Shown: in pieces, positions 19,941 to 27,354 of the stretch | How positions within the stretch are numbered: the stretch's first letter is position 1 | Layout: every line of letters starts with the position of its first letter | Assembly (NCBI RefSeq): GCF_040448685.1 | Contig: NZ_CP159290.1 | Coordinates: 4,154,001-4,218,000 of the forward strand | Length of the DNA: 64,000 bases | Direction of reading: 5' to 3' | DNA from: Cellulosimicrobium sp. ES-005 | GTDB lineage: Bacteria; Actinomycetota; Actinomycetes; Actinomycetales; Cellulomonadaceae | Notes under the pieces: generated by a model | Told to the model about the DNA's origin: nothing | Seen by the model: the letters and a program-made list of their open reading frames with translations, nothing else | Database searches by the model: none | Program-made: the position numbers and the translations under genes

Positions 19941-21236
19941 TCAGCAGGCGCCGAGGTCCTTCCAGACGCCCCACTGCCCGCTCTGCGTCGGGTTCTCGTT
20001 CGTCGTCCACCACTTCGCCTCGTAGGTGTGGCCCTGGAGGGAGACGCGGTTGCCGCCGGTGTAGACGGCCGACGCGGACCACGCCGGGGCGGTGCAGGTG
20101 CCCGGGTCCGTGGGGTCGGTCGGGTCGGTCGGGTCCGTGGGGTCGGTCGGGTCGGTCGGGTCCGTGGGGTCCGTCGGCGTGGTCGGGCCGCTGGCGAGGC
20201 GAGAGCCGATGACGGAGGCGACCTGGTAGTTGTTCGTCTTGTCCCAGTTGATCGACCAGGTCATGACGCCGCCGATCTTGCCGTACGGCGTCGCGGGCTT
20301 GAACGAACCGCAGCCGGTGCCGACCTCGAGGCAGTCGACGGCCTTCACGACGTTGGCGAGCGGCTGGTAGCCACCGCCGGCGGCCTTCTGGACCGCGGGC
20401 ACGCCGATGCCGACCTGGTCGGGGCGCAGACCCATCTCGAGCTGGATGCAGGACAGCGCGGTGAGGAAGTCGACCGTGCCCTGCGAGTAGACCTGCTGGT
20501 TGCAGCCCATCATCGAGCCCGAGTTGTAGTACTGGGTGTTGACGATCGTGAGGATGTCCTTGATCGCGAGGGTGAGCTGGTAGTACCCCATGCTCGTCGC
20601 CTGGTAGTCGATCGTCTGCGGCGCCATCGTGAGGACGAGGCTCGGGCCGGCCTTCGCGGAGAGCTGGTGCAGCGCGCTCGACATGTACGTCGCGTTGATG
20701 CCGTGCTCGAGGTCGATGTCGACGCCGTCGAAGCCGTACTCCTGCATGAGCCCGTACGCGGTGTCGGCGAAGTTCTTGGCCTCCGTCGCGTTGGAGACGA
20801 CGACGTTGCCCTTCTCGCCGCCGACGGAGAGCACGACCTTGCGGCCCTGCGAGCGGATCGTCGCGATGTCCGCCTTGAACTGCGCCTCGGTGTAGCCGCC
20901 CAGCTCCGCGCTGGAGAGGTTGAACGTGATGCCGCCCGGCGTTCCGGCCAGGTTGTCGGCGAAGGCGACCGCGACGAGGTTGTACGCCTGCGGGATCTCC
21001 GACAGGCGCATCGTCACGGAGCCGTTGTCGAAGTTGTGCCAGTAGCCGGTGAGCCACTGCGTGCTGCCCGACGCCGCGGCGGCGGGTGCGGCGACGGCCG
21101 GCGCGGGCGCCGCGGTCGCGGGCGCTGCGGCGAGGGCGCCGCCCGCGGCGACGGTCGCGGCGGCGACGACGGTGGCGAGGGCGCGCAGCGCGCGCCCGGT
21201 ACGGCCGCGCGCGCGGCCGGAGAGGACTGGTGTCAC
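19941..21236 (-). CDS. Secreted GH18 chitinase with C-terminal chitin-binding module
   Basis: 431 residues. Signal peptide (~1-42, Ala-rich, cleavage near ATAAPAP), a GH18 catalytic domain from WLTGYWHNF to VMTWSINWD with the signature DGVDIDLEHG (catalytic Glu ~177) and LSVGGEKG, a Thr-Asp-Pro repeat linker (~351-377), and a C-terminal CBM5/12-like module with aromatic residues (WSASAVYTGGNRVSLQGH, AKWWT, WGVWKDL). It cleaves beta-1,4 links in chitin by substrate-assisted catalysis outside the cell. GTG start with GAGGAG eight bases upstream. It is an accessory gene set between ribosomal operons. No TGGTCTAGACCA-type DasR box was seen upstream. Confidence 0.93.
   Translation of the reverse strand: MTPVLSGRARGRTGRALRALATVVAAATVAAGGALAAAPATAAPAPAVAAPAAAASGSTQWLTGYWHNFDNGSVTMRLSEIPQAYNLVAVAFADNLAGTPGGITFNLSSAELGGYTEAQFKADIATIRSQGRKVVLSVGGEKGNVVVSNATEAKNFADTAYGLMQEYGFDGVDIDLEHGINATYMSSALHQLSAKAGPSLVLTMAPQTIDYQATSMGYYQLTLAIKDILTIVNTQYYNSGSMMGCNQQVYSQGTVDFLTALSCIQLEMGLRPDQVGIGVPAVQKAAGGGYQPLANVVKAVDCLEVGTGCGSFKPATPYGKIGGVMTWSINWDKTNNYQVASVIGSRLASGPTTPTDPTDPTDPTDPTDPTDPTDPTDPGTCTAPAWSASAVYTGGNRVSLQGHTYEAKWWTTNENPTQSGQWGVWKDLGAC
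20100..20175 (-). repeat. TDP-repeat linker of chitinase
   Basis: Nine-base units encoding Thr-Asp-Pro, repeated about eight to nine times between the catalytic and chitin-binding domains, with alternating GGGTCGGTC and GGGTCCGTG units. Length variation between strains is likely. Confidence 0.8.
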
Positions 21237-21691
21237 GGAAGTGCTCCTCGTGCTCGGGCGGGTCGCGACGTCGCGGCCCCGCCGGTCCGCACCCGCGGTG
21301 GGCGCAGGGGTCGTCCTGCACGCTAGGAGCCCGTGCCGTCCCGTGGCATGAGGGATTCCCCGGCAGTTCCCGGGCCCGGCATACGGGGGAACACCTAGAC
21401 GGCGACCCGGCCCGACGGCGATCCTGAGGCCGGTGGGCGGCGTCGCGACGAACGATGGGCGACGGATGTATCAGACGGGTGACCCGTCCCTCTTGTCCCG
21501 GTGGAGGAGTGTCGGCCGACGCTCCGACCCGCGTGTCGAAGGAGCGAGATGGGACGCAGCCGCACGAGCCAGGAGGGGTGTGACCAGTGACGATGGTTGT
21601 CGACCCCACCGGCCCGGCCATAGAATCAGGCGCTTCCGGGGACCCCCCGCTGATGCCTGGACGGACGAGCGTGCCGAGGACAGTGCCCCCC
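21237..21691. other. Intergenic region between chitinase and sigma-factor gene
   Basis: A divergent control region of about 455 bp. It holds the perfect inverted repeat GACGGGTGACCCGTC (21474-21488), an AGGAGGGG tract (21571-21578), and a promoter-like pair TTGTCG (21597-21602) / TAGAAT (21621-21626) with 18-bp spacing. The reading frame from a GTG at 21587 is open into the sigma gene but uses codons rare here (ATA, TCA, AGG, ACA, AGA), so I take it as leader rather than coding. Confidence 0.55.
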
Positions 21692-22327
21692 ATGACGAGA
21701 ACGACCGACGAGGTGGCCGACACCGACGAACCCGGGCTGAGCCTGGGGGACCGGGGCGCGCTCGCGCTCCTCGAGTACCGCGACGGTCGCCCCCACGCCC
21801 TCGGCGAGTTCGTCCGCGAGGCGACGCCCCTGCTCTGGCACACGGTGCGGGCCCAGGGCGTCGAGCGCGAGCAGGCCGACGACATCGTCCAGACCGTGTG
21901 GGTCGCGCTCGTGCGCAACGCGATGACGATCAAGGAGCCGCACGCCGTCCTCAAGTGGCTGCTCATCACGGCCAAGCGCGCCGCGTGGGAGGCCGTGCGC
22001 AAGCACCGCGACGAGGCGAAGCGCCGCACCGAGCTCCCCGACGACACCGACGAGGGAGTGCCGGAGCTCCCCTCGGGCGACCCGACGCCGGACGTCGAGG
22101 TGCTCCGCAACGAGCGCGACCGCACGCTGTGGGCCGCGCTGGACCAGCTGCCGGACCGCTGCCGGCGGCTCCTGCGGCTGGTGTCGCTCGCCGACCGACC
22201 CGACTACAAGGCCATCTCGGCCGCGATCGGCATGCCCGTCGGGAGCATCGGCTCCACGCGCGGTCGCTGCCTCGCCAAGCTGCGCGACATCATCGACGAC
22301 CAGGGGGAATCGTGGGAAGCATCATGA
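21692..22327 (+). CDS. ECF-type RNA polymerase sigma factor
   Basis: About 211 residues with sigma region 2 (LGEFVREATPLLWHTVRAQGVEREQADDIVQTVWVALVRN, then LKWLLITAKRAAWEAVRKHRD, the -10-recognition helix) and region 4 (LWAALDQLPDRCRRLLRL to ISAAIGMPVGSIGSTRGRCLAKLR). Regions 1 and 3 are absent, so it is an extracytoplasmic-function-like sigma-70 protein. The ATG at 21692 is preferred to an upstream GTG at 21587 because the extra 35 codons have atypical codon use and contain a promoter-like sequence. Its stop overlaps the next start (ATGA). It probably drives this cassette and perhaps other genes; the regulon is unknown. Confidence 0.85.
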   Translation: MTRTTDEVADTDEPGLSLGDRGALALLEYRDGRPHALGEFVREATPLLWHTVRAQGVEREQADDIVQTVWVALVRNAMTIKEPHAVLKWLLITAKRAAWEAVRKHRDEAKRRTELPDDTDEGVPELPSGDPTPDVEVLRNERDRTLWAALDQLPDRCRRLLRLVSLADRPDYKAISAAIGMPVGSIGSTRGRCLAKLRDIIDDQGESWEAS

Positions 22328-22821
22328 GCACCGAGCCGACGCACAGCCCCGACGAGCCGCTCGACGCCGTCGACCTCGCGCTGCTCGCGGAGCTGGCGCG
22401 GATCGCGGAGGAGATCGACCCCGTGCCCGACGGCCTCGTGGAGCGGTCGCTGTTCGCGATCACCCTCGCCGGCCTCGAGGCCGAGGTCATGGAGCTGGAG
22501 TACGTCCAGGTCCCCGAGATGTCCGTGCGGGGCGACGCGCCGCCCGTCGAGGCGCGCACCATCACGTTCACGTCCGAGTCCGTCACGGTCATGATCTCGC
22601 TGTCGGCGACCGACGACGGACGCATCCGCATCGACGGCTGGGCCGCCCCGGCGACGGCGCTGCGCGTCGAGCTGCACCGCCCCGGCACCGTCAGCGAGAC
22701 CACGAGCGACGACGACGGCCGCTTCGTCTTCGACGCCGTCGACCGCGGCCCGGCGAGCCTCGTCGTGCGCCGTGCCGACGGCGCCGGCGGCGCCGTGAGC
22801 ACCCCGGTCGTCGAGCTGTAG
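22324..22821 (+). CDS. Small protein: helical N-terminus plus CnaB/carboxypeptidase-regulatory-like domain
   Basis: 165 residues, not recognised by name. Residues ~12-60 are an acidic amphipathic helical region (LALLAELARIAEEIDPVPDGLVERSLFAITLAGLEAEVMELE). Residues ~72-165 are beta-rich with the pattern TTSDDDGRFVFDAVDRGPASLVVRR, typical of CnaB-like or carboxypeptidase-regulatory-like beta sandwiches. No signal peptide or membrane helix, so cytoplasmic. It is translationally coupled to the sigma factor, the usual place of an anti-sigma factor. A role as sigma inhibitor and/or protease substrate is a hypothesis from context only. Confidence 0.7.
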   Translation: MSTEPTHSPDEPLDAVDLALLAELARIAEEIDPVPDGLVERSLFAITLAGLEAEVMELEYVQVPEMSVRGDAPPVEARTITFTSESVTVMISLSATDDGRIRIDGWAAPATALRVELHRPGTVSETTSDDDGRFVFDAVDRGPASLVVRRADGAGGAVSTPVVEL

Positions 22822-22849
22822 CCGCCCTCGTGGCCCCGGGGGCCCAAAG

Positions 22850-22890
22850 CCCCCCCCCCCCCCCCGGGGCCCCCCCCCCCCCCCACCCCC
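22850..22890. repeat. Poly-C tracts in intergenic region
   Basis: Sixteen consecutive C (22850-22865), GGGG, fifteen C (22870-22884), A, five C, preceded by GGCCCCGGGGGCCC. Such homopolymers occur nowhere else in the window. They may be a real slippage-prone tract or an assembly/read artefact. The tract lies between the small protein gene and the subtilase gene. Confidence 0.9.
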
Positions 22891-22972
22891 TTCCGCGCAC
22901 CCGTGCGCGGCCGCGCCCGTCGACGTCGACGCCCGCGGCACCGACTGAACGCCATCCCTCGAGGAGGAGCAC

Positions 22973-24778
22973 GTGAGCGAGACCCCCGAACCCCCCGTCG
23001 ACGTGACCGGCCCCGGCTACTACGGCGACAGGCCGAACCGGCTCCAGTGGCGCACGCGCACGATCGACCCGGTCAGCGCGCCGCGCCGCGCGGGGAAGCA
23101 GTCCCCCCACCCGACGTGGTATGTCGGCGACCGCATCCTCATCCCCGAGTCGCCGTTCGACCGCGAGGGCAACCGCTCGCTCCGGTGGCTCGAGCGCGCG
23201 GCGGCCGACCGCGGGCTCCGGGTCGAGGTGCAGGAGGAGAGCATCGAGGACGCCGAGCTCGTGCGCGAGGCCGACCTCGACCCCGAGACGACGCGCGACC
23301 TGCTCAAGACCTTCGGCTACTCCGTGCGTCTGCACTACCGCGACGACCGCCAGGGCGCGCTCCCCGATGCCTGGGGGCTGATCGAGGAGCTGCGCGGGCG
23401 GCTGTGCCCCGACGACGGGTGCAGCCCGCGGCTCGCTCTGGACCACATGATCGCGCCGACGCCGTTCATCGGCGGCCAGCCCTACACCCAGCCGTTCCCG
23501 TACACGCAGCCGCTGCCGTACACGCAGCCGTTGCCGTATACCCAGCCGCTGCCGTACACGCAGCCGTTGCCGTATACCCAGCCGCTGCCGTACACGCAGT
23601 CGCTCGGTGCGGGGACCGCGGAGTACGCCGTGCCGGGATCCGGCGGACGGACACCGGTGAGCTGGATCGGCCCCGTGCCGCGGCGCAGGCTTCCCGCCGG
23701 CGCGAACCCCTACGTGTCGGGCGACGGGGTGCGGCGTCCTGTCGTCGCGGTGCTCGACACCGGCGTGGGCGAGCACCCGTGGTTCGACGACGACCTGGAG
23801 ACGCGGGGGACGGTCGTCGTGCGCGACCCGGAGCTCCTCGGGCAGCCCCTCTCCACCCTCCCCCCGACGGAGTACCCGTACGAGGATCCCGAGATCGGAG
23901 GCGTCTCGGTCTCGCCGCTCACCGGGCCGCTCGACGCCGTGGCCGGGCACGGGACCTTCATCGCGGGCCTCGTCCACCAGCTCTGCCCGGACGCCGTCAT
24001 CCTCGCCCCGCGTCTCTACGGAGGGTCGGGGGTCGTCCCCGAGCGGGAGCTCCTCCGCTCGCTGCGGAGGCTGCTGCTCTGGCACGTCCTCGGGCTGACC
24101 GGCCGCGACGGCTACGCGCCGATCGACGTCCTGGTGCTCTCGCTCGGCTACTACCACGAGCGTCCCGAGGACGCCGACTTCGACGCCCCGTTCGGAGCGC
24201 TCATCCGAGCGCTCCGTCGCTACGGGGTCATCGTCGTCGTCTCGTCGGGCAACGACGGGCAGACCCGGCCGACCTACCCGGCCGCGTTCGCCCCGCGCAT
24301 CGACCGGAAGGTGAGTCCGCCCGTCCCGTTCGACGGGGTCGCTCTCCTCGAGGACGAGCCGCCGGTGCTCGCCGTAGGAGCCCAGAACCCGGACGGGACG
24401 GTGTCGCTCTTCAGCAACGACGGTCCGTGGATCACGTGCACCCGGCCCGGTGCCTCGTTGGTCTCGACCATCCCGCGGACCATCGACGGCGCTGTCGCGC
24501 CGTCCCGGCACGTGCGCGAGCTGTGGGGCCCGGGCTTCCGCGCGACGATCGACCCTGAGGGCTTCCAGGGCGGGTTCGCCACGTGGAGCGGGACGTCCTT
24601 CGCCGCACCTGTGCTCGCCGGTGAGCTGGCGGCCACGCTGCTCGACCGCATCGCCGACGATCCGACCGCGCCCGGTGTGGTGGACCCGGGCCGGGGTGCG
24701 CCCGAGCGCTGCGCCTGGCTGTGGCCGTCCATTACCCTGGCGACGGGTCTGGTCCCGACCCCGGGTGACGACGCATGA
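22973..24778 (+). CDS. Cytoplasmic S8 (subtilisin-like) serine protease
   Basis: 601 residues. The first ~165 form an unrecognised N-terminal domain. Residues 170-211 are seven PYTQPL-type hexapeptides. The subtilase domain follows with catalytic Asp ~262 (AVLDTGVGEH), His ~326 (AGHGTFIAGLV), oxyanion Asn ~427 (SSGNDG) and Ser ~542 (GTSFAAP). All catalytic residues are present. No signal peptide or lipobox is visible, so it should act in the cytoplasm. GTG start with GAGGAGGAG upstream. The TPR-CHAT gene follows after 8 nt, so they are co-transcribed, probably with the sigma and small-protein genes. The substrate is unknown; proteins encoded in the cassette are candidates. Confidence 0.9.
   Translation: MSETPEPPVDVTGPGYYGDRPNRLQWRTRTIDPVSAPRRAGKQSPHPTWYVGDRILIPESPFDREGNRSLRWLERAAADRGLRVEVQEESIEDAELVREADLDPETTRDLLKTFGYSVRLHYRDDRQGALPDAWGLIEELRGRLCPDDGCSPRLALDHMIAPTPFIGGQPYTQPFPYTQPLPYTQPLPYTQPLPYTQPLPYTQPLPYTQSLGAGTAEYAVPGSGGRTPVSWIGPVPRRRLPAGANPYVSGDGVRRPVVAVLDTGVGEHPWFDDDLETRGTVVVRDPELLGQPLSTLPPTEYPYEDPEIGGVSVSPLTGPLDAVAGHGTFIAGLVHQLCPDAVILAPRLYGGSGVVPERELLRSLRRLLLWHVLGLTGRDGYAPIDVLVLSLGYYHERPEDADFDAPFGALIRALRRYGVIVVVSSGNDGQTRPTYPAAFAPRIDRKVSPPVPFDGVALLEDEPPVLAVGAQNPDGTVSLFSNDGPWITCTRPGASLVSTIPRTIDGAVAPSRHVRELWGPGFRATIDPEGFQGGFATWSGTSFAAPVLAGELAATLLDRIADDPTAPGVVDPGRGAPERCAWLWPSITLATGLVPTPGDDA
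23480..23605 (+). repeat. PYTQPL-encoding 18-bp tandem repeats (36-bp higher-order unit)
   Basis: Seven in-frame 18-bp units code PYTQPF, five PYTQPL and PYTQSL. CTG/TTG and TACACG/TATACC variants alternate, showing expansion by 36-bp duplication. It forms a flexible Pro/Tyr/Gln linker between the N-terminal and protease domains. Confidence 0.9.
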
Positions 24779-24786
24779 GGTGATGA

Positions 24787-27354
24787 GTGGTCAGCAACCA
24801 GGCGGTGCTCGAGTCCCGCCTGGCGGCCGCACAGGCGACGAACGCCCGTGGGCGCCACCGGCGCGCGATCCGTGCCTTCGAGGAGATCGTCGCCGAGGTC
24901 GAGGCGCAGGGGGACGGGGCGACTCGCGAGGCCGTGTACGTGGCCGCCCGGGCAGGCATGAGTCGCGCCGTCGCGGAGTTCGAGCTGTCCGGGTCGCTGG
25001 ACGACGCGCTCGGGCGGCTCGCGCTCCTCGAGGAGCGCGGGGCCGCCCTGGGCATGTACGACCTGCAGTTCGTCGTGCGCGCCCAGCGCGGGCTCCTCCG
25101 GCTGCGGACGGGCGACGTGCGGGAGGCGCTCGTCGAGATGGAGGAGGCGGCCACGGGCGTCGACGACGCGCGCCCGCTCGACGCCGCGGTGCTCATGCTG
25201 AACCTCGGGTCGCTGCGGCTCGAGCTCGGCGACGCCGAGGGAGCGAGCCGCGACCTGGACGACGCCGTGCGCCGGGGCGTCGCGCTCGGGGACGACCTCC
25301 TCGTCTCCAAGGCGCGCCACAACCTCGGGTACGCGGAGTACCTCCGTGGCGATCTCCCGGTCGCGCTGCGTGCGATGGACGAGGCCGCCGACCAGGCGCC
25401 GGACCGGCACGCCGCGGTCGGTCTGATCGACCGCGCGCAGGTCCTGCTCGACGCCGGGCTGCTGACCGAGGCCGACGACGCGCTGCGCGAGGCGCGCGAG
25501 CACCTCTCGCGCTACCGCATGCTGCGCGACCTCGCCGAGGTCGAGCTGGTGCGGTCGCGCGTCGTGCTCGGCCTGCGACGCTACGCCGACGCCCGCCGCC
25601 TGGCCCGGTCGGCGTCGCGCCGGTTCGACCGGCTCGGGAACACCCCGTGGATGCTGCGAGCCCGCGTCGCCGAGCTGCAGGCGGCGCTCACGGAGCACCG
25701 GTCGGACGGCGTGACGCCGACGACGGCACGGCGGCACGCCGGCTGGGCGCTCGCCCTCGCGCGCGAGGGCGAGGCGCTCGGCGGAGCCGCCGGCCTCGGC
25801 GTGACGATCCCGGCCCAGCTCCTCGCGGCCGAGTGGCTCGTGACCGCGGGGGACGTTCCCGCCGCGCAGGACGTCCTGGCGCAGGTTCCCGGGCGGCTCG
25901 ACCGCGCCCCGCTGCCCGTGCGGCTGCAGCACGAGGCCGTGCTCGCCCAGCTCGCGTTCGCTGCCGGGGACCGCCGTGGCGGCGTGCGGGCCGTGCGGCG
26001 CGGCCAGTCGGCCCTCGCCGAGCACCGCGCGCGGCTCGGCTCCGTGGACGCGGTGACGGCGTCGGCCGTTCACGGGGTCCGGCTCGGCAACGTGGACGTG
26101 GCGGCGGCGCTGCGGACGCGGCGCCCGGGGACGATCTTCGACGCGGTCGAGCGCGGCCGCGCGGCGTTCGCCGGCACCGGCCGTGTGCGGCCTCCGTCGG
26201 ACCCGGTCCTCGCGGATCTCCTCGCCGCGGCGCGCCGCGAGGTCGAGGCAGCCCGCGCGCTCGGCGCGCCCTCGGACCCCTCGCACCTCGCCCGTCGCCA
26301 GGACCACCTGCGGTCTGCCCGTCGGCTGCAGGACGACGCGCGTCGCCGCGCCTGGCAGCACGGGGGAGAGGCCGCCACGCCGCTGGCCACGACGGAGCGC
26401 CGGCTCCGGGCCGCGCTCGCCGCGGCGGGCTCCGACGCCGTGGTCGCCGACCTCGTGGTCGAGGGCGACGACGTCCTCGCCGTCCGCGTGTCCGCGGCGG
26501 GGACGCGGCTCGTGCGGCTCGCGCCGCGCACGACGGTCGCGGAGCGCGTGCGCCGCGCGCGGGCCGACTTCGCGGTCCTCTCCAACGTGCTCATCCCCGT
26601 CCCGATGCGGGAGGCGGCGGTCGCGTCGCTCACGCGCACCCTGACCGCGCTCGACGACGCGCTCGTCGTCCCTCTGGAGGCCGACGGCGACCTGCACCTC
26701 GCCGCGCGCGACCTCCTGCTCGCGCTCCCGTGGGCCTCTCTGCCGTCACGGCGCGGGCGACGGACGTGGGCGAACTCGTGGGTGGACCTGCGGGTCGGGG
26801 ACCCGACGCGGCGTGCCGACGAGGCGCTCGTCGTCGCCGGCCCCGGGCTGCGGTTCTCGGGTGCGGAGGCCAAGCTCGTCGCGTCGGTCTGGGAGGGCTC
26901 CGAGGCCCTCGCGGGCGAGGACGCCACGTGCGAGGCGGTGGTCGAGGGCCTCCGGAGCGCCGGGGTGGTCCACCTCGCGGCGCACGGGACGCACGAGACC
27001 GACAACCCGCTCTTCTCCTCCCTGCGGCTCGCCGACGGCCCGCTGTTCGCGCACGAGCTGGACGGGATCGACCTGCACGGCGTGGTCGTGGTCCTCTCGG
27101 CGTGCGAGGTGGGGCTCTCGACGCCGCGCATCGGCGGCGAGTCCCTCGGCCTGACGAGCGTGCTGCTGCGCCTCGGCGCGCGAGCGGTGGTCGCGAGCGT
27201 CGCCCCGCTGCGCGACGACGTCGCCGCGCGCGTCATGCCCTCGCTCCACGCCGAGCTGCGCGACGGCGCCATGCCAGGGACGGCGCTCGCCCGCGCCGTC
27301 GCCGACGAGCCCGAGCCCGTCCCGCTCGTGTGCTTCGGGCCGCTGGTGCTCTGA
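24787..27354 (+). CDS. TPR-CHAT caspase-like protein
   Basis: 855 residues. The N-terminal ~450 consist of paired helices of tetratricopeptide type (for example DLQFVVRAQRGLLRLRTGDVREALVEMEE and NLGYAEYLRGDLPVALRAMDEA). A middle linker follows, and the C-terminal third is a CHAT domain with catalytic His ~733 (VVHLAAHGTHETDNPLFSSL) and Cys ~773 (VVLSACEVGLS), then GESLGLTSVLLRLGARAVVASV. CHAT proteins are clan CD (caspase/separase-like) proteases; TPR-CHAT members include Csx29 of type III-E CRISPR. GTG start with GAGGTGAT upstream. It is the last gene of the cassette with the subtilase, small protein and sigma factor. The TPR part may sense a partner that activates cleavage (inference). Confidence 0.9.
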   Translation: MVSNQAVLESRLAAAQATNARGRHRRAIRAFEEIVAEVEAQGDGATREAVYVAARAGMSRAVAEFELSGSLDDALGRLALLEERGAALGMYDLQFVVRAQRGLLRLRTGDVREALVEMEEAATGVDDARPLDAAVLMLNLGSLRLELGDAEGASRDLDDAVRRGVALGDDLLVSKARHNLGYAEYLRGDLPVALRAMDEAADQAPDRHAAVGLIDRAQVLLDAGLLTEADDALREAREHLSRYRMLRDLAEVELVRSRVVLGLRRYADARRLARSASRRFDRLGNTPWMLRARVAELQAALTEHRSDGVTPTTARRHAGWALALAREGEALGGAAGLGVTIPAQLLAAEWLVTAGDVPAAQDVLAQVPGRLDRAPLPVRLQHEAVLAQLAFAAGDRRGGVRAVRRGQSALAEHRARLGSVDAVTASAVHGVRLGNVDVAAALRTRRPGTIFDAVERGRAAFAGTGRVRPPSDPVLADLLAAARREVEAARALGAPSDPSHLARRQDHLRSARRLQDDARRRAWQHGGEAATPLATTERRLRAALAAAGSDAVVADLVVEGDDVLAVRVSAAGTRLVRLAPRTTVAERVRRARADFAVLSNVLIPVPMREAAVASLTRTLTALDDALVVPLEADGDLHLAARDLLLALPWASLPSRRGRRTWANSWVDLRVGDPTRRADEALVVAGPGLRFSGAEAKLVASVWEGSEALAGEDATCEAVVEGLRSAGVVHLAAHGTHETDNPLFSSLRLADGPLFAHELDGIDLHGVVVVLSACEVGLSTPRIGGESLGLTSVLLRLGARAVVASVAPLRDDVAARVMPSLHAELRDGAMPGTALARAVADEPEPVPLVCFGPLVL

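Follow-up and report, generated by a model that had tools for sequence, protein, structure and literature searches.

The window analysed here, a stretch of 64,000 nucleotides from Cellulosimicrobium sp. ES-005 (contig NZ_CP159290.1, positions 4,154,001 to 4,218,000, forward strand), carries on its plus strand a cassette of four genes encoding (i) a sigma factor of the extracytoplasmic function (ECF) type (211 aa, 21692-22327; TIGR02937, E 4.9e-20, 71.8 bits against a cut-off of 42.9; Sigma70_r2, E 2.5e-7), (ii) a small protein (165 aa, 22324-22821), which its AlphaFold2 (AF2) model, its homologues and its linkage to the sigma gene mark as a candidate soluble anti-sigma factor, (iii) an S8 subtilase (601 aa, 22973-24778; Peptidase_S8, E 8.4e-16, 58.6 bits, cut-off 21.8), and (iv) a protease with tetratricopeptide repeats (TPR) and a CHAT domain (855 aa, 24787-27354; CHAT, E 6.1e-27, 95.2 bits, cut-off 24; TPR matches weaker). 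An alternative GTG start of the sigma gene is also possible at 21587. The original prediction, made from the letters of the window, had named these genes and their active sites, and both are confirmed: the genes are real, co-directional and arranged head to tail, and the S8 triad D262 (23756), H326 (23948) and S542 (24596) as well as the CHAT dyad H733 (26983) and C773 (27103) are each invariant in 28 of 28 aligned sequences. The subtilase, in which no signal peptide was recognised by eye, is read as cytoplasmic. The further claim of a single operon agrees with the common orientation and with the ATGA overlap of the small-protein start and the sigma stop, but is qualified by a gap of 151 bp between the small-protein and subtilase genes and by a position of the subtilase gene 5' of the sigma gene in some genera. 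The gap contains a C/G homopolymer tract (C16-G4-C15-A-C5, 22850-22890, plus strand), which could be a slippage site or an assembly-sensitive stretch.

The gene set is strongly co-conserved across Actinobacteria, so that the first of the outcomes named in the original prediction as refuting it, a lack of co-conservation, does not apply. The CHAT protein was matched in 60 of 396 genomes sampled across the phylum (59 of 248 in the order), and the small-protein profile in 54 of the 396. Neighbourhoods were compared in a CHAT-centred set (40 regions fetched around the better CHAT matches plus the window, 41 in all) and in a sigma-centred set, chosen independently of CHAT, of the best 80 of at least 586 sigma relatives, where a stretch of 9 kb was fetched and presence counted within it; the scripts work with rough profiles, codon scores and start sites. 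The sigma and small-protein genes are present in 40 and the subtilase gene in 35 of the 41 CHAT-centred regions, one of which (L092) holds CHAT alone. Among the sigma-centred loci, the small protein is found in 80/80, CHAT in 72/80 and the subtilase in 60/80. The small-protein gene starts at most 120 nt from the sigma stop in 79 of these 80 loci, with a frame-correct NTGA overlap in 67 of the 79, and all 340 profile-match rows (E < 1e-15) lie on the sigma strand. Gene order varies, the subtilase gene being located 3' of the small-protein gene in the relatives of the window and 5' of the sigma gene in other genera; in the fetched stretches of several Cellulomonas it was not found.

The AF2 model of the small protein (predicted local distance difference test (pLDDT) 87.6, predicted template modelling score 0.57) comprises helices at aa 15-31 and 38-60 and seven strands, with a beta-sandwich at aa 78-150. 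For the C-terminal half, Pfam CarboxypepD_reg gives a match at E <= 0.1 in 20 of the 32 members (best 1.6e-5), that of the window protein lying under the curated cut-off. This part is read as a non-catalytic beta-sandwich. In a distant family (f19), five fully fetched loci (L215-L219) show the order sigma, small homologue, CHAT, subtilase. The small homologue is longer at the N-terminus than in the window family, and the anti-sigma model NF052375 (NCBIfam) is matched by 10 of 13 homologues at E <= 1 (best 5.2e-5), zf-HC2 by 3/13 and RskA_N by 1/13, all scoring well short of the curated cut-offs; in the cases with coordinates, the match falls in the N-terminal region. The beta domain is common to these homologues and the window family (hhalign probability 97.6, E 2.9e-12). 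Since the small protein accompanies the sigma gene in all 80 sigma-centred loci and its distant homologues carry an anti-sigma-like N-terminus, it is likely an anti-sigma factor, and the anti-sigma position that the original prediction had assigned to it thereby gains support.

The class I anti-sigma domain is described in the available part of PMC7406223 as a three-helix bundle to which a fourth helix is linked, with likely solubility for about 35% of the proteins. The small protein resembles this class in its N-terminal helices ahead of a separate domain, in the position of its gene beside the sigma gene and in the occurrence of soluble forms. It differs in that two helices are predicted for the window protein and a fuller N-terminal domain is found only in the distant lineage. 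Owing to this smaller number of helices, the assignment is likely rather than firm. The f19 loci (L215-L219 and L235-L247), which we take to be Rubrobacteria-like, encode a sigma factor, an anti-sigma-like protein with the beta domain and CHAT, with a subtilase additionally in L215-L219; this subtilase looks exported by eye in the three cases inspected.

This neighbourhood is already known as the context of the ECF sigma group ECF54, for which the original papers are reportedly Huang 2015 and Casas-Pastor 2021. In the accessible part of a review (PMC8999054), ECF54 is described as an actinobacterial group with conserved carboxypeptidase, subtilase and CHAT genes nearby, and control of the sigma factor by the associated proteases, without an anti-sigma factor, is proposed. 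The window cassette shares the ECF sigma factor and the carboxypeptidase-like, subtilase and CHAT context, and is placed in the group by this described context rather than by the group's own sigma model. It differs from that part of the description in that the 'carboxypeptidase' is read here as a non-enzymatic CarboxypepD_reg-like protein and likely anti-sigma factor, its beta-sandwich probably being the source of the label. The view stated in the review, that no anti-sigma factor exists and the associated proteases degrade the sigma factor directly, appears quite improbable in view of the coupled small protein present with the sigma factor in 80/80 loci and of the distant homologues with an anti-sigma-like N-terminus. 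Beyond the ECF54 description in the same source, the likely anti-sigma factor is new, as are the promoter, regulon, repeat array and variable block described below, the latter four being absent from the original prediction, too.

A predicted autoregulatory ECF promoter is located upstream of the cassette at 21468-21494 on the plus strand (genome positions 4175468-4175494), consisting of a -35-like GTATCA (21468-21473), a 16-nt spacer and a -10-like CTCTT (21490-21494). The dyad GTAT-N18-CTCC occurs in 35 of 78 non-redundant operon upstreams and is absent from all five shuffled sets, where the best dyad of any set reached at most 14 of 78. Within 400 nt upstream, the strict motif GTATCA-N15-17-CTC[CT][TC] precedes 52 of 79 sigma-centred operons (200 shuffles: mean 0.025, maximum 1) and a relaxed form 71 of 79 (shuffle mean 0.34, maximum 3), irrespective of whether the sigma or the subtilase gene comes first; these operon counts are partly circular, as the motif was derived from operons overlapping the test set. 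GTATCA-N16-CTC(C/T)T is thus predicted to be the promoter of the cassette operons.

The genome-wide test is more independent than the operon counts. In 29 cassette-positive genomes, GTATCA-N15-17-CTCCT has 76 matches versus 6 for the reversed pattern, whereas in 12 genomes without a CHAT match the numbers are 9 and 10. Judged by position, operon promoters account for 15 of the 76, and another 6 adjoin the cassette. A CTCCC variant shows 14 versus 0 reversed matches in five cassette genomes without CTCCT matches, five of them operon promoters, and 2 versus 7 in 12 other genomes, five of which possess the cassette. The enrichment of CTCCC in cassette genomes lacking CTCCT matches suggests lineage-specific -10 elements. 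Coding frames around the matches were judged by a codon score built in this analysis; none of the six inspected matches in cassette-negative genomes was promoter-like by this score.

For 26 of the 60 genes downstream of non-operon matches, picked as interesting, a Pfam scan was performed, and five encode a CHAT or peptidase domain over the cut-off. Predicted targets include a divergent CHAT pair in genome G535 (L324, L325/L357), each behind a motif copy, calpain-type C2 proteases in G546 and G594 (L299, L318) and a NAL1/trypsin-like protease in G546 (L301). The locus scan added a set of homologous trypsin-like genes, of which L071/L175 (same contig), L168, L170 and L090 narrowly miss the Pfam cut-off and L173 and L092 have no Pfam match, as well as a 1166-aa S8-VWA protein at L172. 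The three matches to GTATCA-N15-17-CTCY in the present genome belong to the cassette operon, to a phospholipase-like gene and, judged by eye, apparently to the inside of an ABC-F gene. The phospholipase-like gene encodes a Tle1-like domain (PF09994, E 5.7e-76) with the motif 74 nt upstream, and its homologue in G571 has a motif copy 43 nt upstream. Overall, the predicted regulon looks hydrolase-enriched but mixed. Some further products behind motif copies are worth recording: two similar small proteins (L358, 139 aa; L372, 138 aa), both with TNDCGCRWGE, no Pfam match and the motif 34-35 nt upstream; a 961-aa protein (L356, G543) with a metal-protease-like HELTH sequence near its end and no matching Pfam peptidase; and a CBM9-like C-terminus in one of the two G535 CHAT proteins (L324 or L325/L357).

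Comparison of Cellulosimicrobium strains delimits a variable block at 22900-25410 (plus strand) in a 250-bp DNA identity profile, covering the subtilase gene and the start of the CHAT gene. Across about 22.9-25.4 kb, DNA identity per 250 bp amounts to 57-75% versus L128 (C. cellulans MP1) and L130 and to 57-86% versus L144, while the flanks versus L128 and L130 reach 85-98% before and 86-100% after the block. The left border lies close to the homopolymer tract (22850-22890), and on the other side the block reaches about 180 residues into the TPR region; these first 180 residues (24787-25326, plus strand) share 31-55% identity per 60 residues with L128, L130 and L144. At the protein level, the comparison with C. 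cellulans MP1 yields 100% identity for the sigma factor, 99% for the small protein, 100% for RplJ and 96% for the CHAT part, versus 35% for the N-terminal domain and 58% for the catalytic part of the subtilase (L130 similar). Versus L144 the latter two are 82% and 80% identical and the CHAT part 94%, so that the CHAT part remains at 94-96% in all three comparisons; all three strains have a nearly identical sigma factor and small protein. L129 has the window allele; L131, L132, L133 and L156 are also divergent, but with less similar sigma factors (87-95%). Such sharp divergence of the subtilase and the TPR front in an otherwise nearly constant locus would be in keeping with the behaviour anticipated for a recognition system.

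Within the block, the subtilase possesses a mostly well folded N-terminal domain (aa 23-163, 23039-23461, plus strand; AF2 block means 67-94). Long Foldseek alignments to PCSK9 and to unprocessed pro-subtilisin, with TM-scores (template modelling) < 0.4, tentatively suggest that this domain is possibly prodomain-like. Between it and the catalytic domain, a tandem array of the hexapeptides PYTQPF/PYTQPL (aa 170-209, 23480-23599, plus strand) is located in a predicted disordered segment (residues 164-230, pLDDT < 50). Catalytic triad and fold agree with intracellular or prodomain-bearing subtilisins of family S8, from which the cassette subtilase differs by this disordered repeat linker with its lineage-specific unit. 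A near-perfect tandem repeat of 5-7 residues is present in 56 of 89 distinct cassette subtilase reading frames, with 42 different units among the 56 that differ between lineages; the repeat ends 28-61 residues (in one case 6) ahead of the following Asp motif, which is presumed to be the catalytic one. TPR domains often bind short peptides, which makes the repeat a natural candidate for the TPR ligand.

Covariation between the two proteases was analysed for 50 loci, with the CHAT-domain distance removed by partial correlation and 500 label permutations. The distance between repeat units correlates with that of TPR residues 1-180 (partial r 0.45, 0/500 permutations as high) and less with that of TPR residues 181-560 (partial r 0.28); for the catalytic part of the subtilase the partial r is 0.41 and 0.15, respectively. 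These findings bear on the possibility that the block is merely a horizontally exchanged allele, one recombination tract spanning subtilase and CHAT N-terminus with no coupled function. The contiguity of the block and its fairly sharp borders in L128 and L130 would agree with such an exchange; the closer tracking of TPR 1-180 by both repeat-unit and subtilase distances argues against it, as does L144, where the subtilase is about 80% and the first 180 TPR residues only 38-55% identical, meaning that there is additional, independent divergence at the TPR end. Exchange without coupled function is therefore doubtful, although it retains an appreciable chance. At the other extreme, the cassette may be an immune-receptor-like or self-recognition switch, in which the N-terminal TPRs of the CHAT protease would read the code formed by the tandem repeat (and the surface) of the subtilase allele encoded with them, mismatch or loss of contact would activate the proteases, destroy the anti-sigma factor and launch a sigma-driven hydrolase programme, and alleles of the pair would be exchanged or diversified as a block within an otherwise nearly unchanged locus; we regard this as rather unlikely.

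The interpretation towards which we lean, if modestly, is a self-amplifying sigma/anti-sigma switch with a partly proteolytic output and a co-adapted, variable subtilase/TPR recognition pair. It builds on computed features (co-conservation, conserved catalytic residues, promoter enrichment, variable block and repeat arrays) and would operate as follows. The small protein would hold the sigma factor through its N-terminal helices; triggering of the TPR-CHAT/subtilase pair would inactivate the anti-sigma factor, most likely by CHAT or subtilase cleavage; and the freed sigma factor would transcribe its own operon from GTATCA-N16-CTCYT as well as a small regulon in which additional proteases and other hydrolases are included. 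Recognition would fall to the co-adapted pair of subtilase and N-terminal TPRs, with the tandem 5-7-residue repeat possibly contacting the TPRs as a ligand.

Cleavage of the anti-sigma factor by the proteases, already proposed in the original prediction, is plausible on account of (i) the gene linkage, (ii) duplicated subtilase/CHAT sets with their own extra small proteins beside one sigma-small pair (L088/L199, one contig of a Nitriliruptorales metagenome-assembled genome (MAG), and L089), and (iii) the type III-E CRISPR precedent described in the accessible part of PMC10028731, where the CASP module comprises the TPR-CHAT protein Csx29, Csx30 and CASP-sigma. The cassette resembles that module, as described there, in encoding a TPR-CHAT protein together with an ECF sigma factor and a small sigma-binding candidate, and differs from it by the S8 protease and by the CarboxypepD_reg/Ig-like beta domain of the small protein. 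The likeness drawn in the original prediction holds in logic, but the cassette CHAT protein is not assignable to Csx29 (23.7 bits versus a cut-off of 300). No recognised Cas protein is among the four cassette genes, the search having been confined to these rather than aimed at Cas genes or CRISPR arrays.

Alternatively, CHAT and subtilase may be outputs only, made on demand after another signal has released the sigma factor and leaving the anti-sigma factor untouched. Both proteases are located behind the sigma promoter, some other predicted targets are also proteases, and sigma-small pairs without proteases in the fetched stretch exist (Actinokineospora L197; L220, L222, L224, L230, L233, L234), all as would be expected of mere outputs. 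The presence of CHAT near the sigma-small pair in 72/80 loci argues against this alternative, and so do the duplicated protease sets beside a single sigma factor, which bring their own small proteins and thereby suggest that small protein and proteases work together. Outputs without a role in sigma release are unlikely, though with a chance to be reckoned with. In four Actinokineospora loci (L197, L194, L200, L201) the fetched stretch holds the sigma-small pair and neither CHAT nor subtilase; the pair in L197 is followed by a convergent gene for a HelD-like helicase (named by eye).

A function in anti-phage defence, as the original prediction had suggested, would draw on the analogy to Csx29/Csx30/CASP-sigma in the cited part of PMC10028731, and a variable block with a possible recognition function would fit an arms race. 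PADLOC, however, yielded weak single-protein matches (BovA, E 4.9e-5, to CHAT; 'subtilase', E 2.2e-4), no cut-offs being given. Moreover, rplJ, which in the window is the next gene after the cassette (named from its sequence), is found next to the cassette or in its vicinity in 61 of 120 fetched loci (some genomes belong to both sets and enter the count twice, and some stretches are cut by contig ends). These loci include Pseudonocardiales MAGs with rplJ about 62-64% identical, by which the location of the cassette is old and often kept; this speaks against a mobile defence island. The phage response thus found no support and is considered improbable, and the original interpretation as a whole is partly supported.

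Several observations weigh against the switch towards which we lean. As to gene content, the subtilase is absent with CHAT kept in 13/80 sigma-centred loci, both are out of reach in 7/80 (some at contig ends, those of Actinokineospora not), and the subtilase occurs without CHAT in 1/80. No anti-sigma model among the Pfam and NCBIfam profiles matches the small protein of the window, and the matches of its distant homologues stay under their cut-offs. The relaxed motif is absent from 8 of 79 operons (L165, L172, L177, L186, L194, L198, L201, L203), the counts for the remainder being subject to the circularity given above. Genome-wide, only 32 of the 60 non-operon matches have a promoter-like placement (ahead of a coding start and not within a coding frame), and the remaining scanned targets are Hsp70-like, AMIN-like, GH127, NAD-binding or without assignment. 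In the present genome, the three CTCY matches face one reversed match, and the ABC-F-internal copy counts as a further objection. With respect to covariation, the raw r of the subtilase catalytic distance is slightly higher for TPR 181-560 (0.83) than for TPR 1-180 (0.79), and shared phylogeny is only partly removed by the CHAT-distance control.

If the proposed switch is true, the ECF54 genome-context remark becomes a testable circuit with a likely anti-sigma factor, an assayable promoter, predicted targets and a polymorphic protease pair. CHAT signalling outside CRISPR would then be linked to recognition, an open question for these widespread proteins, by a caspase-like bacterial protease with a sensor end that covaries with a second protease and the repeat linker of the latter.

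The closest named records of the cassette are from Cellulosimicrobium cellulans and C. funkei, with sigma factors 99-100% identical. Divergent from the cassette, the window contains a gene at 19941-21236 (minus strand) for a chitinase of glycoside hydrolase family 18 with a carbohydrate-binding module (CBM5/12) and a TDP-rich linker, a relative of which is found within the fetched stretch of 17 of the 120 loci.

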